A stretch of 64,000 nt of DNA, taken from assembly GCA_947593515.1 (NCBI GenBank), contig CANQDQ010000005.1, positions 1-64,000 on the forward strand. The letters run 5' to 3'. Each line of letters opens with the position of its first letter. Positions within the stretch are counted from its first letter, which is position 1. Below, one piece after another: positions 719-6,866 of this stretch. The DNA comes from an uncultured Bacteroidales bacterium (GTDB taxonomy: Bacteria > Bacteroidota > Bacteroidia > Bacteroidales > UBA11471). Under the pieces are notes generated by a model. The model ran no database searches. It saw only the letters and a list, made by a program, of their open reading frames with translations, and had not been told where the DNA came from. The position numbers were made by a program, and so were the translations under genes.

Positions 719-1027
719 TTATTTTCGTCCTCCTGTTTTCTTCCCGGCCAGTTCAAGGGCAAGCTCCACATCTACGATAATCTTGCGACCTATCTGGGTG
801 ATTGCCTTGTCAATCTTTCCGCTTTTCTTGATGCGGTTGGCGGTGGGCAGGCTGCACCCGAACAGTTTGGCAATGCCCAGTATTCCGTACACATACTTCC
901 TTTCTGTGTCCGTAACGGGCTGTGGCTGCATTTCCGTTTGACCGGAAGCGTGCTTGCTTAAGAATATGAACTCTTCGCCTGTCATCTGCCAGACGGGTTT
1001 TGATAATAACTCTTGAAGATTTGTCAT
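719..1027 (-). CDS. DUF3853-like small DNA-binding/helix-turn-helix protein
   Basis: 102 aa ORF directly upstream of the ATPase; helix-turn-helix-like segment YGILGIAKLFGCSLPTANRIKKSGKI...GRKIIVDVELALEL. Confidence 0.7.
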   Translation of the reverse strand: MTNLQELLSKPVWQMTGEEFIFLSKHASGQTEMQPQPVTDTERKYVYGILGIAKLFGCSLPTANRIKKSGKIDKAITQIGRKIIVDVELALELAGKKTGGRK

Positions 1028-1183
1028 CGTCCAATCTATTTAGTCGTTTAACAATCAGCCCTGCGCACTGGCTGTTATTTCTGTTCTCGAACGATGCAAA
1101 ATTAGGTAGGTTTGTAAGTGGTAAGGATGTGGTTAGTGCAAATGGAATATTTTATTATTTCTTTGAATATCAGACAATAAAAA

Positions 1184-1211
1184 TACCACTCAAAAATTAA
1201 TTTGAGTGGTA
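1184..1211. terminator. Perfect 11-bp inverted repeat (TACCACTCAAA-AATTAA-TTTGAGTGGTA), probable hairpin/terminator between element genes
   Basis: Perfect inverted repeat in the intergenic gap between 1027 and 1251. Confidence 0.5.
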
Positions 1212-1250
1212 AAAGTGGTTATTTCGTAATATGTCAGGGTATATCACGGA

Positions 1251-2288
1251 TTATCGGAATATTGCGTCCATTTCTTTGGCGAACTTCTGGTTGCTGTCAC
1301 TTGGGAAATCGGAAACAGGTTCCTTGTATTTTGACTTGTAATAGTTCTCTTCAATATCCAGCATTTTGAGGATATTCTTTTTCCAATTCTCCCTGTCAAG
1401 TTTGGGCAGTTGTTCACCCATCAGGAATATCAGGTAGCAGACACGTATTTTCTCTCTCGTTTTTATTTTCAGCTTGCATTTGCCGGGGTGCAGATTCATA
1501 CAAGCATAGAAATCATATTCGGAAATATTCTCGAATTGTTCTCCTACGCAGGTCGTGTAAACGTGCGAAAGCAACTCCATGTCGAAATATTCGTGTTGTT
1601 CCTCTTTGGGTGCTTCTTCTTGCATATCGGGTTCGCTTGGCTTGGTTAGCTCTTCCGGTTTATCTTTAGCTACGGGAATATATTTTGCTAATATTTCCAT
1701 AAAATGGAAACTCAATTTATAAATATCTCCGCAGCAGTTCTCTATATATTGGAAAGCCTCTTTTCTTGCTTGCTTTTGCAATTCATAAAGCCTGTTCAGT
1801 TCTTCTTTTTCTTTCTCATATTCAGCCTTGCAGCGTTCATATTCCTTTTCGGCTTGCTTTTCTTCTTCTGCCGTATGTTCCCTGTAACCAATAAAATCAT
1901 ATCTGTTATATGCCTCGTTCAAAGGCTTGTTTAGTCTTTGTGTAACCTCCAGTTGTTCCTCTATATCAATATTATATCTATCAGCGAAATGGTAGCACAC
2001 ACGAGAAATTATCTCATCATCAAGCAATGGATATTTTTCGTAAAGCATCATGTTTTTCTCTATCTCGGCTCTTAGACTGTCGAGAATCAGAGTGTACTGT
2101 TCTTTCTGCTTGTCAAGTACCAATTCAAGGATAGCGGCTTCAAAAGCTTTTGTGTCATTGTATTGCTTGTAGAAGTTCGTGATGAATTTCTGCTTGTCAA
2201 AAGAAAAAGTATGGCTTACAATAAAGTCACTGTATATTCGGTTGAGTTCACCGTATTGGGGAATCATAATCAGTATTTCTCCTGCCAT
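1251..2288 (-). CDS. Uncharacterised mobile-element protein with central charged coiled coil
   Basis: 345 aa ORF; coiled coil AEEEKQAEKEYERCKAEYEKEKEELNRLYELQKQARKEA; 11 nt downstream of the DUF1016 gene stop, same strand. Confidence 0.75.
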   Translation of the reverse strand: MAGEILIMIPQYGELNRIYSDFIVSHTFSFDKQKFITNFYKQYNDTKAFEAAILELVLDKQKEQYTLILDSLRAEIEKNMMLYEKYPLLDDEIISRVCYHFADRYNIDIEEQLEVTQRLNKPLNEAYNRYDFIGYREHTAEEEKQAEKEYERCKAEYEKEKEELNRLYELQKQARKEAFQYIENCCGDIYKLSFHFMEILAKYIPVAKDKPEELTKPSEPDMQEEAPKEEQHEYFDMELLSHVYTTCVGEQFENISEYDFYACMNLHPGKCKLKIKTREKIRVCYLIFLMGEQLPKLDRENWKKNILKMLDIEENYYKSKYKEPVSDFPSDSNQKFAKEMDAIFR

Positions 2289-2299
2289 ATATCTTGGGT

Positions 2300-3589
2300 T
2301 TATGGATTTTTGTCTTTATCAAGAAAGGAAGCCAGTTCTTCTTCCACTTCTTCTATACTTGGCAGAGCCGATTTTAAGTTTTCAGGTATAGCCTTGCTCA
2401 GTTGGTAATCGCTGATGCCTATCGGCTGGTCATAGCCTGTCAATGCGTATTGTGCTACAACTTCGTCTTTTCCCTTGCACAGCAACAACCCGATAGTCTT
2501 GTTGTCATTCTCTCCCCTCAGTTTATCATCCACCACATTGATGTAGAAGTTCAGTTGTCCTGCATACTCCGGTTTGAATGGGGTAGCCTTTAATTCTACC
2601 ACGATATATGCGTGCAACGGAATGGAATATAGAATCAGGTCGGCAAAGAAATCGCTGTTTCCGACTTGGAAGTGCTTCTGCCGGGCAACGAAGGCAAAAC
2701 CGTTGCCCATTTCCAACAGGTAGCGGGTAACGTGTTTCACCAGCTGTTCTTCAATATCCCTTTCGTCTGCTTTTTCTTTGGCTCCTGCCAAATCAAAGAT
2801 GTACGGGTCTTTGAGTAGGTAATTGGCAAGGTCGCTTTGTGGAGCCGGAAGTGTGGTCGTGAAATTGTTTACCTTGTTGTTGCTGATTTGTCGGCTATAC
2901 AAATCACTGTCAATTTGCATTTTCAATACATTGCTGCTCCATCCCATTTCCACAGACTGCTTCATGTACCAGTAGCTTAGACCTAAAGGTAGCGAACTGT
3001 CAAGTATAGTCATTTGGCTTGTCCAGTTTATTTTGGCTATAGGAGAGGTCAAGAAAACTTCTTCTATTTCCCTGATTCCCATCCTGTAAATGGCAGACAC
3101 GGTTTTTCCCACATCTTCAAATTGCGCAGGAACTTCCTGCGTAATTGCTAATGATTGACAATCAATCGATTGTATTTGCGCAGTAAGTTCCTGCGTAAAT
3201 TGCTTGTCATTCAGTTTTAATACTTCATTGGTCACACTCTGTATGGTTGGGACAGACAGGCTTGCATCTGTTTCTATGAAACTTTGCAACGCTCTTAAAG
3301 GATATGCTTTTGCAAACTGGCACATATAGGTAAGGTTACGTTCCGAATAGCCTTTCTTTTCAGGGTAATGCAGTCGGATAGCCTTTGCCAACTGCTTGAT
3401 GATTTTGCTTCCCCATCCGTGCAGCTGCTGGTGATAAAGGATGTAATTGCCTATCTTCCAGTAATGGAACAGCATTTGTGCATTGGCTGCAACAATCAGC
3501 CTTACTTGTGCCTGTTCTATTTCCGAACCGACCGCTTGTATGAATGCATCAAAATTCGTTTTCTCTATGTTGGATTCCTTGTTGCTCAT
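2300..3589 (-). CDS. DUF1016 (YhcG-type) PDDEXK nuclease domain-containing protein
   Basis: N-terminal segment RLIVAANAQMLFHYWKIGNYILYHQQLHGWGSKIIKQLAKAI; C-terminal PD-(D/E)XK-like GNSDFFADLILYSIPLHAYIVVELKATPFKPEYAGQLNFYINVVD. Confidence 0.88.
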   Translation of the reverse strand: MSNKESNIEKTNFDAFIQAVGSEIEQAQVRLIVAANAQMLFHYWKIGNYILYHQQLHGWGSKIIKQLAKAIRLHYPEKKGYSERNLTYMCQFAKAYPLRALQSFIETDASLSVPTIQSVTNEVLKLNDKQFTQELTAQIQSIDCQSLAITQEVPAQFEDVGKTVSAIYRMGIREIEEVFLTSPIAKINWTSQMTILDSSLPLGLSYWYMKQSVEMGWSSNVLKMQIDSDLYSRQISNNKVNNFTTTLPAPQSDLANYLLKDPYIFDLAGAKEKADERDIEEQLVKHVTRYLLEMGNGFAFVARQKHFQVGNSDFFADLILYSIPLHAYIVVELKATPFKPEYAGQLNFYINVVDDKLRGENDNKTIGLLLCKGKDEVVAQYALTGYDQPIGISDYQLSKAIPENLKSALPSIEEVEEELASFLDKDKNP

Positions 3590-3652
3590 ATTGTGATGAT
3601 AATTTCTACAAATATAGTCATTGGTAACTATCTATGAAACTGTTTGATACTT

Positions 3653-4936
3653 TTATAGTTGATTAAACTTGTTCATGGCATTTGCCTTAATATCATCCGC
3701 TATGTCAATGTAGGGTTTCATAGCTTTGTAGTCGCTGTGTCCCGTCCATTTCATGACCACCTGTGCCGGGATTCCGAGAGCCAGCGCATTGCAGATGAAT
3801 GTCCTTCTTCCTGCATGGGTACTGAGCAAAGCGTATTTGGGTGTGACTTCATCAATACGTTCATTTCCCTTGTAGTAGGTTTCCCGTACAGGCTCGTTGA
3901 TTTCTGCCAGTTCGCCCAGCTCTTTCAGGTAATCGTTCATCTTCTGGTTGCTGATGACGGGCAGAGCCATGTAATTCTCGAAATGGATGTCCTTGTATTT
4001 GTCCAGTATGGCTTTGCTGTATTTGTTCAGTTCAATCGTCAGGCTGTCGGCAGTCTTGACTGTGGTTATTTCGATGTGGTCGGACTTCACATCGCTTCTT
4101 TTCAGATTGCGAACATCCGAATACCGCAAACTCGTAAAGCAGCAGAACAGGAAAACATCACGCACACGTTCCAGGTATTGCTTATCCTTGGGTATCTGGT
4201 AGTCTTTCAGCTTGTTCAGTTCATCCCAAGTCAGGAAGATTACTTTTTTCGAGGTGGTTTTCAGTTTCGGTTTGAACGTATCGTATGCAATGTTCTGATG
4301 ATGTCCTTTCTTGAAGCTCCAGCGCAGGAACCATTTGAGGAATCCCATTTGCTTGCCGATGGTGCTGTTTCTCATATCCTTGGTGTCACGCAGGAAGTTG
4401 ACGTATTCGTTCAATCCAAACTCGTTGAAATAGTTGAACGTTGCATCCTCCTTGAACTCTTTGAGGTGGTTCCTCACTGCTGCAAATTTTTCATAGGTGG
4501 ATGCCGTCCAGTTATTCTGGTTACCGCACTCTTTTACAAACTCATCGAACACCTCCCAAAAGCTGACAGGGGCTTCTTCCGGCTGTTCTTCGCTGGTGTC
4601 TTTCATTCTCATGTTGAAAGCTTCCTTCAACTGTTGGGTCGTTGGCATGACCTCCTGCACCTCAAATTCCTTGAAAATATTCTGGATTTCGGCATAGTAT
4701 TTCAGCAAGTCCGTATTGATTTCGGCTGCACTTTGCTTTAGCTTGTTGGTACATCCGTTCTTTACCCGCTGCTTATCTGCATCCCATTTGGCTACGTCAA
4801 TCCGGTAGCCCGTTGTAAACTCGATGCGTTGGCTGGCAAAGATGACACGCATACGGATGGGTACGTTCTCTACGATTGGCACACCGTTCTTTTTCCGGCT
4901 CTCCAATGCAAAAATGATGTTGCGCTTGATATTCAT
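3653..4936 (-). CDS. Tyrosine-type site-specific integrase (phage integrase SAM-like)
   Basis: Catalytic-type motifs CFTSLRYSDVRNL, HAGRRTFICNALALGIPAQVVMKWTGHSDYKAMKPYIDI; internal start MNIKRNIIFALESRKKNGVPIVENVPIRMRVIF at 4936 preferred over the ORF start 4978. Confidence 0.92.
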   Translation of the reverse strand: MNIKRNIIFALESRKKNGVPIVENVPIRMRVIFASQRIEFTTGYRIDVAKWDADKQRVKNGCTNKLKQSAAEINTDLLKYYAEIQNIFKEFEVQEVMPTTQQLKEAFNMRMKDTSEEQPEEAPVSFWEVFDEFVKECGNQNNWTASTYEKFAAVRNHLKEFKEDATFNYFNEFGLNEYVNFLRDTKDMRNSTIGKQMGFLKWFLRWSFKKGHHQNIAYDTFKPKLKTTSKKVIFLTWDELNKLKDYQIPKDKQYLERVRDVFLFCCFTSLRYSDVRNLKRSDVKSDHIEITTVKTADSLTIELNKYSKAILDKYKDIHFENYMALPVISNQKMNDYLKELGELAEINEPVRETYYKGNERIDEVTPKYALLSTHAGRRTFICNALALGIPAQVVMKWTGHSDYKAMKPYIDIADDIKANAMNKFNQL

Positions 4937-4980
4937 AATTGGGTGCGTTTGAAATTCTACACCCAAATATACACCCAATT
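4937..4980. promoter_or_regulatory. Repeat cluster upstream of integrase (candidate arm-type/operator sites)
   Basis: TACACCCAA at 4958-4966 and 4970-4978 (direct), plus inverted AATTGGGTG at 4937-4945 pairing with CACCCAATT 4972-4980. Confidence 0.45.
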
Positions 4981-5086: not shown

Positions 5087-5110
5087 GTTCGAGAGCCTGT
5101 CTCTCCGCCA
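5087..5110 (+). other. tRNA-3'-end-like sequence, candidate att site of the integrative element
   Basis: GTTCGAGAGCCTGTCTCTCCGCCA: TTCGA T-loop motif followed by a possible acceptor 3' strand and CCA; no matching 5' half precedes it; lies 151 nt beyond the integrase start. Confidence 0.45.
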
Positions 5111-5166
5111 ATACGGCAGATAGTAAATTAATCGACGCTAAAAAATCGCAAAATTATTGTTATTGT

Positions 5167-5197
5167 TTTGTCAATTCAGAAGAATCGACTATTTTTG
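5167..5197 (+). promoter_or_regulatory. Bacteroidota-type promoter (TTTG - 19 nt - TATTTTTG)
   Basis: TTTG 5167-5170 and TATTTTTG 5190-5197, matching the TTTG/TAnnTTTG consensus with 19-nt spacing. Confidence 0.65.
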
Positions 5198-5255: not shown

Positions 5256-6146
5256 ATGGAAATAAAAATAGAAGCCAATATCAAGGATAATCGAATGTCT
5301 GACGGATTATTCAATGCAATGACGGTAATCCATCAAATTAATAATCTGCCGGAAGAAAGCATAAATCTCGATTTTTCGGGCGTTAAATTCGTTACACCTT
5401 TGTATGTTTTGCCATTGGTCATATATCTACATGGTTGCGGACGAAATATAACGATTGCCAACGAAAATAATTATTTACAAACCATACTGTTCTCGCAAGG
5501 TTTGCAACCGGACAAGATGCGCAGAAGCGAATTTCTTGCCATCATGGAAAAATATTCGTTGAAAACATATACCCCTATTATAAGTTTTCCGGCGACAAAA
5601 GAGCGTGATGATGAGAAAGATGCAATCATATCGACGGTGGAATCTATCATTGCACGGCAATTGAATTTAAGTACGAATATTGTAACAGGAATCAAATATA
5701 TATTGGGCGAATGTGTGGATAATATAATTCAGCACGCCAATTCGGAACGGGGTTATATTATTGCACAGTCTTATCCGACAAAAAAGTATCTCGATATTTG
5801 TATTGCAGATAATGGTATTACCTTATTAGGCAGTTATAAAGCGGCAGCCAACAATGAAATCAAAACCGATATCGACGCCATACAGGCTGCCAACAGGGGT
5901 GTTTCGACTAAAAATCTTCCGAATGCCGAGAATCGGGGATACGGTATCATAACGTCGAAAAAAATGTTGATAAAAGGTTTGAGCGGAACTTTCGTCATGA
6001 TGTCGGGAAATTCCGTGTATCTTTACAATGATTCTTTCGACACGTTTATCGAGATGCCGCAAGAAATTCGCTGGCAAGGAACTATAATCGGTTTGCGAAT
6101 ACCGTACAATAATAAGTCGTTCCAATATATTCATTATGTCGAATAA
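5256..6146 (+). CDS. STAS-like domain + GHKL/HATPase domain protein
   Basis: N-term INLDFSGVKFVTPLYVLPLVIYLHGCGRNI (STAS-like); N-box ECVDNIIQHA; G1-like IADNG; G2-like NRGYGIITSKKM. Confidence 0.78.
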   Translation: MEIKIEANIKDNRMSDGLFNAMTVIHQINNLPEESINLDFSGVKFVTPLYVLPLVIYLHGCGRNITIANENNYLQTILFSQGLQPDKMRRSEFLAIMEKYSLKTYTPIISFPATKERDDEKDAIISTVESIIARQLNLSTNIVTGIKYILGECVDNIIQHANSERGYIIAQSYPTKKYLDICIADNGITLLGSYKAAANNEIKTDIDAIQAANRGVSTKNLPNAENRGYGIITSKKMLIKGLSGTFVMMSGNSVYLYNDSFDTFIEMPQEIRWQGTIIGLRIPYNNKSFQYIHYVE

Positions 6147-6164
6147 TTATAGTAGCTTTGCGAT

Positions 6165-6524
6165 ATGAAACCAACAGTTATTGATATAACGACCGTATTA
6201 AGTCCGGAACTTAAATCGAGATTTGCCGTCAAGGATTTGTTTCTGTTTATTCAGAATACGGGCAGTCGATCTGTAACCGTCGATTTTTCCGGTGTAAAGT
6301 TTGCCACAAGAAGTTTCATCGACGAATATTACAACACTATTGTAAAGGGGGCAGCATCTTCCATTCGGATTGAAACGATAAATATACCGGAAGATATTCA
6401 AATGATTTTCACGGCGGTGGAACGGACGCAGAATAAAACGAAAAGTGCCCGGTCGAAAAGCGGTGTGATAAAGTGCCGGACATTTGTCGATGTGCAGCGA
6501 GTGTTTAGTGATCTGCCTTTATAA
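6165..6524 (+). CDS. DUF4325-like STAS-family protein
   Basis: 119 aa; VTVDFSGVKFATRSFIDEYYNTIV resembles the DUF4325 motif; 18-nt gap from the HATPase gene. Confidence 0.75.
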   Translation: MKPTVIDITTVLSPELKSRFAVKDLFLFIQNTGSRSVTVDFSGVKFATRSFIDEYYNTIVKGAASSIRIETINIPEDIQMIFTAVERTQNKTKSARSKSGVIKCRTFVDVQRVFSDLPL

Positions 6525-6558
6525 GAAAAAGTAGTAAAGAAATATTGGCTGTTTAGCC

Positions 6559-6744
6559 TTGACTACCACTCTTGTGTTCCTGACCTCCTGTAAAGATGAC
6601 GACGCTCCAAGTATCGAAGAGGAGAGTGCGCTCGAGAACCCGACTTCGCCCGAAGCCGCTTTCGACGAACGTGTTGCATATCCGTACACGGCAGCGGCAG
6701 TTCGGTGTTATGACGTTGCAGGGGTTAATTGTGTGGAGAAATGA
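6559..6744 (+). pseudogene. Short lipoprotein-like remnant
   Basis: TTG-start ORF TTTLVFLTSCKDDDAPSIEEESALENP... resembles a lipobox followed by an acidic linker, but has no full signal peptide and stops after 61 aa. Confidence 0.35.
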
Positions 6745-6835
6745 GAACTCGAATTCATACCGTCCATATGAGATAACGGATAGGTCGAGAGTCCCAGCTT
6801 TTTTTAGTTTTATTTCAAAATAGTTTTCCGGTAAT

Positions 6836-6866
6836 TTTGACGGAACGATTTTTTCTTGTAATTTTG
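6836..6866 (+). promoter_or_regulatory. Bacteroidota-type promoter for the polysaccharide export gene
   Basis: TTTG 6836-6839, TAATTTTG 6859-6866, 19-nt spacing. Confidence 0.6.

Follow-up and report, generated by a model that had tools for sequence, protein, structure and literature searches.

Two related systems, CapKS and VapKSC, the latter described by Chambers et al. (EMBO J, June 2026; PMC13373217), have a kinase that senses single-stranded DNA (ssDNA) wired to immune genes or to a toxin. CapK (HTH-STAS-GHKL), once activated by ssDNA, phosphorylates CapS (STAS-wHTH), and in VapKSC the VapS protein (STAS plus a short tail) inhibits the VapC toxin and shares an operon, protective against a phage, with VapK (STAS-GHKL) (PMC13373217). 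In VapKSC, too, the kinase would phosphorylate its STAS partner once activated by ssDNA; that ssDNA activates VapK is a prediction of the paper, which names an aromatic residue contacting ssDNA in each kinase (W68 in CapK, F54 in VapK; PMC13373217). Neither Bacteroidota nor orphan pairs, STAS-GHKL-STAS fusions or DUF4325 come up in its main text, though its supplementary datasets may list some of the pairs found here.

The gene pair studied here (ORF1 and ORF2; Table 1) comes from a gut Bacteroidales genome and adjoins a mobile-element end within a 64,000-nucleotide stretch of DNA that was analysed as a whole (the window). An ORF check placed both genes, their frames intact and separated by 18 nt, where a first-pass annotation of this DNA had put them, and several of its other readings held as well: the module is AT-rich (GC 0.38 and 0.41 for ORF1 and ORF2 versus 0.507 in the window), the neighbouring element end is marked by a tyrosine integrase gene and an att-like tRNA-Ser 3' end, ORF reading shows neither a sigma factor gene nor a PP2C gene next to the pair, and the pair has a promoter of its own. 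TTTG-N19-TATTTTTG is the Bacteroidetes-type promoter consensus, and the window contains 10 such sites against 0.67 expected (at least 10 in 0 of 100 shuffles). Besides the exact match ahead of ORF1, sites of this type serve the integrase gene (4994-4964) and wza (6836-6866), which lies 3' of ORF2 beyond a lipoprotein gene remnant. Since pair, integrase and wza each have their own promoter, ORF1-ORF2 most likely form an independent two-gene transcription unit. A candidate operator in the promoter spacer (GTCAATTC-AGAA-GAATCGAC) was rejected, as 94 of 100 shuffles equalled it.

Table 1. Coordinates in the window of the ORF1-ORF2 pair and of the features that flank it.
Feature	Position	Strand	Description
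ORF1	5256..6146	+	296 aa; N-terminal STAS-like domain (~1-105) and SpoIIAB-type GHKL kinase/ATPase domain (~115-285)
ORF2	6165..6524	+	119 aa; stand-alone STAS-like protein with a weak DUF4325 match
Promoter of ORF1-ORF2	5167..5197	+	Bacteroidetes-type, TTTG-N19-TATTTTTG, exact match
Att-like remnant of tRNA-Ser(TGA) 3' end	5087..5111	+	GTTCGAGAGCCTGTCTCTCCGCCAA; resembles the intact 3' end in the sister species
Tyrosine integrase of neighbouring element	3653..4978	-	Phage_integrase, Phage_int_SAM_5, Arm-DNA-bind_5; boundary marker, separate from the pair
Lipoprotein gene remnant	6544..6823	+	5' end fused to 3' flank, middle deleted

AlphaFold2 was run on a single ORF1-ORF2 chain, the genes being in frame and the three intervening stops read as Gln to give an artificial 7-residue linker (mean pLDDT 87.9, pTM 0.75). 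In the model, ORF1 starts straight with a STAS strand and has no N-terminal HTH, while its GHKL fold finds its best PDB matches, in a fold library extending to April 2026, in SpoIIAB (1til, 1tid; probability 1.00, TM 0.74-0.77 by target length, none at E<=0.001). The N-terminal STAS is marked by D39-F45-P48 and the GHKL domain by an N box (E152xxxN156xxxH160), D185xG187 and RG228xG230, of which E152, N156, H160, D185, G187, G228 and G230 are invariant among 25 homologues; judged by sequence, the ATP site is intact. The proposed architecture, an N-terminal STAS-like segment followed by a GHKL ATPase, is thereby borne out with a predicted ATPase fold, albeit with Pfam matches that stay under the cut-offs (HATPase_c_2, E=1.5e-4; HATPase_c, E=1.8e-3). 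Phrog_3364 matches ORF1 over its full length, and three aromatics (F45, Y50, Y73) are candidates for an ssDNA-contacting residue. A PADLOC match to DrmA of DISARM (5e-12) was discarded as an identity for ORF1, for it covers model positions 110-261 of 1750 and the GHKL region only.

With SpoIIAB as best GHKL fold match, and with weak NCBIfam matches to TIGR01925 (SpoIIAB) and RsbW (scores 19.2 and 15.7 against cut-offs of 135 and 145), one may think of a classical anti-sigma partner switch, in which ORF1 would bind and inhibit a host sigma factor and ORF2 would act as the antagonist. This is, however, improbable given that neither a sigma factor nor a PP2C gene is adjacent, that ORF1 carries an extra N-terminal STAS absent from SpoIIAB and RsbW, and that the pair has a sporadic, transferred distribution (see below); the sigma-factor version of the partner switch raised in the first-pass annotation is left without support.

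ORF2 matches DUF4325 weakly (E=9.6e-4; 19.3 bits versus a cut-off of 23), and its AlphaFold model (pLDDT 90.7) displays a STAS fold with a single short C-terminal helix of 10 residues (107-116) after it and no winged helix. Fold matches of this model include RsbS (probability 1.00, TM 0.55, E-values weak); a sequence search of a PDB copy gave no match for the CapS and VapS structures. The description of ORF2 as a stand-alone STAS-like protein agrees with the modelled RsbS-like fold, whereas its DUF4325-like label stays sub-cut-off. A motif repeated in ORF1 and ORF2 (DFSGVKF) is real, and Pro48-Leu49 in the N-terminal STAS of ORF1 takes the position of Arg49-Ser50 in ORF2. In a weak profile alignment, for which the SpoIIAA sequence was checked against PDB 1auz, S50 of ORF2 falls on S58 of SpoIIAA and T48 on D56. 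An earlier proposal that this Ser is the phosphorylated residue gains from its register with Ser58 and from the Pro-Leu in ORF1, and loses from its conservation: the T48 column is Ser/Thr in 24 of 24 homologues, and the S50 column is Ser in 21 of 24, with Ala in two (L034, L036) and Gly in one (L148). One alignment of ORF2 homologues that contained the joined ORF1-ORF2 construct was excluded, as the homologues had aligned to the N-terminal STAS of ORF1. T48 and S50 both sit at the start of helix 2 and, as candidates, either could be the phospho-acceptor.

Relatives were sought in genome samples of the genus, order, class and phylum (some genomes being sampled more than once), across which ORF1 relatives occur sporadically. 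Within the ORF1 clade, taken as loci with a profile E of about 1e-35 or better, a STAS gene adjoins the kinase gene in 31 of 31 loci including the window (30 downstream, one upstream), a co-occurrence far above chance. The upstream case (L099:9097-10346, genome G585) is the sole one seen with the order reversed, STAS then kinase, and the two genes overlap by 1 bp. Ten more distant proteins (413-430 aa) are STAS-GHKL-STAS fusions, which stop short of the C-terminal helix of ORF2.

Outside the genus, the nearest ORF1 relative is a protein of Bacteroides phage BF1-TP2 (41.5% identity), where the kinase/STAS pair lies among structural genes and away from any lysogeny module, and further pairs are found on related viral contigs, on a Halobaculum plasmid and, within an inserted fragment, in Methanothermobacter prophage psiM100. 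At L157, an HTH-like gene, the pair and an integrase gene are consecutive, an order resembled by that of an apparent pair in Francisella phage KIRK, which is known from annotation only. This BF1-TP2 kinship, the full-length phrog match, the L157 row with its annotated KIRK counterpart and the integrase beside our pair would suit a prophage-type sensor that links DNA damage or superinfection with induction or exclusion and so serves mobile elements rather than host defence. We nonetheless regard such a role as rather unlikely, because most inspected loci are chromosomal, some of them with defence neighbours, and because the BF1-TP2 pair does not sit in a lysogeny module. In psiM100 ('inserted fragment IFa'; L056:3517-6442) the pair is followed by a protein of 492 aa that looks weakly PIN-like at its N-terminus (E=0.013, sub-cut-off), possibly making up an archaeal vapKSC, and the record notes host homologues MTH315/MTH316.

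As to its own location, the att-like sequence upstream of the pair is the only match to the tRNA-Ser 3' end in the whole assembly and is probably the boundary of the integrative element that lies to the left of the pair. That element (719-4978 in the window) encodes the integrase, a YhcG/DUF1016 PDDEXK nuclease, DUF3853 and a 345-aa protein without clear family match, and its other end lies past the contig start. In a sister genome (G005), whose wza is 94.4% identical to that of the window, wza comes immediately after tRNA-Ser(TGA) and the pair is absent. In a second sister species (G004), a 3.9-kb block between tRNA-Ser and wza (L053:11259-15283) has the pair flanked by two lipoprotein gene copies, the first ahead of it and the second, internally deleted, behind it; the window shares the pair and the deleted copy but has the integrative element on its left side, and this shared remnant marks the right side of the transferred block. 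Since the pair is 98.9 and 97.8% identical in DNA between window and G004, as opposed to 77.5% for wza, and since the closer species (G005) lacks it, these comparisons indicate recent horizontal transfer of the pair between species. Seven of the ten changed ORF1 codons are synonymous, and purifying selection on the pair is weakly indicated. G004 and G005 are 94% identical upstream of the tRNA and 83% downstream, so the tRNA-Ser/wza hotspot is a recombination boundary. We also weighed a circular permutation of the insert, which would put the pair on either side of the lipoprotein gene, but set it aside because the two lipoprotein copies of G004 explain both orders. The first-pass annotation placed the pair just outside a mobile-element end, in a setting it considered typical of defence or regulatory cargo; the pair is cargo of the hotspot, beyond the att site of the present integrative element, and not cargo of that element. 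Its place directly upstream of wza in two species might also suggest that it regulates the capsule-export genes next to it, wza and wzz; yet wza has its own promoter, it follows tRNA-Ser without the pair in the closer species and relatives elsewhere have unrelated neighbours, so that we judge this reading very unlikely.

To see what else accompanies such pairs, two protein sets were screened with PADLOC models: 98 proteins lying within ~3.5 kb of the pair at 21 loci and, as controls, 103 proteins taken from 18 regions of the same or sampled genomes. With a threshold of E<=1e-30, the near set drew matches from 55 models and the control set from 2 (both methyltransferases), counts being of models, several of which match one protein, and some models (RT, PDC) standing for candidate defence families only. 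The defence enrichment expected from the first pass is thus seen, although the control regions were arbitrary contig positions unmatched for mobile-element content and the excess may therefore partly reflect genomic islands generally. Neighbours include a PDC-S37 helicase-nuclease (L035), a type IIG R-M system (L038), DrmD and MTase_III (L103) and DruE, with a DpdE/DrmD-like helicase at 6 kb (L100), while at L098 a helicase fragment overlaps the kinase gene. Many relatives adjoin housekeeping rather than defence genes, which makes the defence association partial; at the same time, the pair is not confined to fixed housekeeping contexts but also occurs in phages and near defence genes. Two neighbourhoods deserve separate mention. 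At L037:9191-12073 (G462) two genes come after the pair, one XRE-like HTH gene (identified by eye) and one IrrE/Peptidase_M78 gene; CapH+CapP, a further regulator of immune operons that responds to damage, has this composition, and the locus may hold two damage sensors side by side. At L100:8428-10187 (G665) only 7 bp separate the kinase gene from the end of a preceding Clp-protease-like gene (PF00574, E=1.8e-18), which forms with the pair an apparent three-gene operon adjoining DruE and the DpdE/DrmD-like helicase.

Flanking-gene clustering over 30 loci revealed no recurring third gene beside the pair. For PIN-type toxins, to which this search was restricted, the genome (99.4% complete) gave no PIN domain match, and PF01850 is absent from G000, G004 and G005. 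Loss of a toxin could in principle leave a decaying remnant of a vapKSC operon, and there is indeed no VapC here while psiM100 has its weakly PIN-like gene after the pair. Against this, both frames are intact in two species, the codon changes in ORF1 are mostly synonymous and ~30 diverse relatives with intact catalytic residues are likewise devoid of a recurring linked third gene; decay is therefore very unlikely.

To our minds, ORF1-ORF2 are, with somewhat better than even confidence, an orphan kinase/STAS switch of two genes that is mobile, resembles VapK-VapS and has no linked effector, so that its output may be unlinked. By analogy, the pair probably works like VapK-VapS, yet it is not a VapKSC system. 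From homology we infer kinase activity, activation by ssDNA and the phospho-site, and likewise a part in defence or in the response to damage. At rest, ORF2 would be unphosphorylated and bound to a partner. ORF1 would sense a signal, most likely ssDNA from phage replication or DNA damage, that binds between its STAS and GHKL domains, upon which the GHKL domain may phosphorylate ORF2 where STAS helix 2 begins (T48 or S50) and so free the partner. The latter could be an unlinked host or phage protein; alternatively, ORF2 itself may act via its C-terminal helix. The earlier picture, in which a kinase with a degenerate STAS domain of its own neighbours a STAS substrate in a conflict-type context, has gained ground through the CapKS/VapKSC precedent (PMC13373217), universal pairing, fusions, phage carriage and defence neighbours. 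More tentatively, the GHKL/STAS damage switch may have a third class of output, represented by an autonomous module, transferable as two proteins or one fused protein, whose STAS protein would control an unlinked target, unlike the CapS repressor or the linked antitoxin VapS. It is conceivable, though we would not presume it, that Bacteroidota chromosomes and phages commonly carry this module. Provided that the pair is active, its target would be an undescribed link in the response to damage or phage.

Set against known systems, ORF1-ORF2 resemble SpoIIAB-SpoIIAA and RsbW-RsbV in the Bergerat fold, the ExxxNxxxH N box and a STAS partner with a Ser in register with SpoIIAA S58, but SpoIIAB and RsbW are stand-alone GHKL proteins, whereas ORF1 has an extra N-terminal STAS, no sigma factor or phosphatase nearby and a mobile distribution. 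HATPase/DUF4325 pairs and STAS-GHKL-STAS fusions (PF14213; phrog_3364 and phrog_20761, of unknown function) have the same domains, adjacent or fused, and ORF2 differs from PF14213 members in scoring under the DUF4325 cut-off. With CapKS the pair shares an adjacent GHKL kinase with an internal STAS, a STAS substrate and proximity to immune operons, yet CapK has an N-terminal HTH and CapS a C-terminal wHTH, and as ORF1 and ORF2 lack these, the CapKS repressor mechanism does not apply as described. In domain architecture, VapK is a STAS-GHKL kinase without HTH, like ORF1, and VapS a STAS domain with a short C-terminal region, like ORF2 (VapS is described to residue 116, ORF2 has 119 aa); adjacent kinase and STAS genes and a defence neighbourhood add to the likeness. 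The conserved Ser/Thr phospho-acceptor of VapKSC may have its counterpart in T48 or S50 of ORF2. VapKSC differs by its third gene for the VapC PIN toxin: no such gene adjoins ORF1-ORF2, none was detected in the genome and no third gene recurs in the Bacteroidota clade, and with neither an adjacent VapC nor a PIN match in the genome we do not class the pair as VapKSC. The pair is real, recurrent, mobile and partly explained by the 2026 precedent, and its missing output is the point of interest: phages, defence neighbourhoods and single fused proteins all feature the sensor-substrate unit of CapKS and VapKSC, with neither of the two outputs attached.
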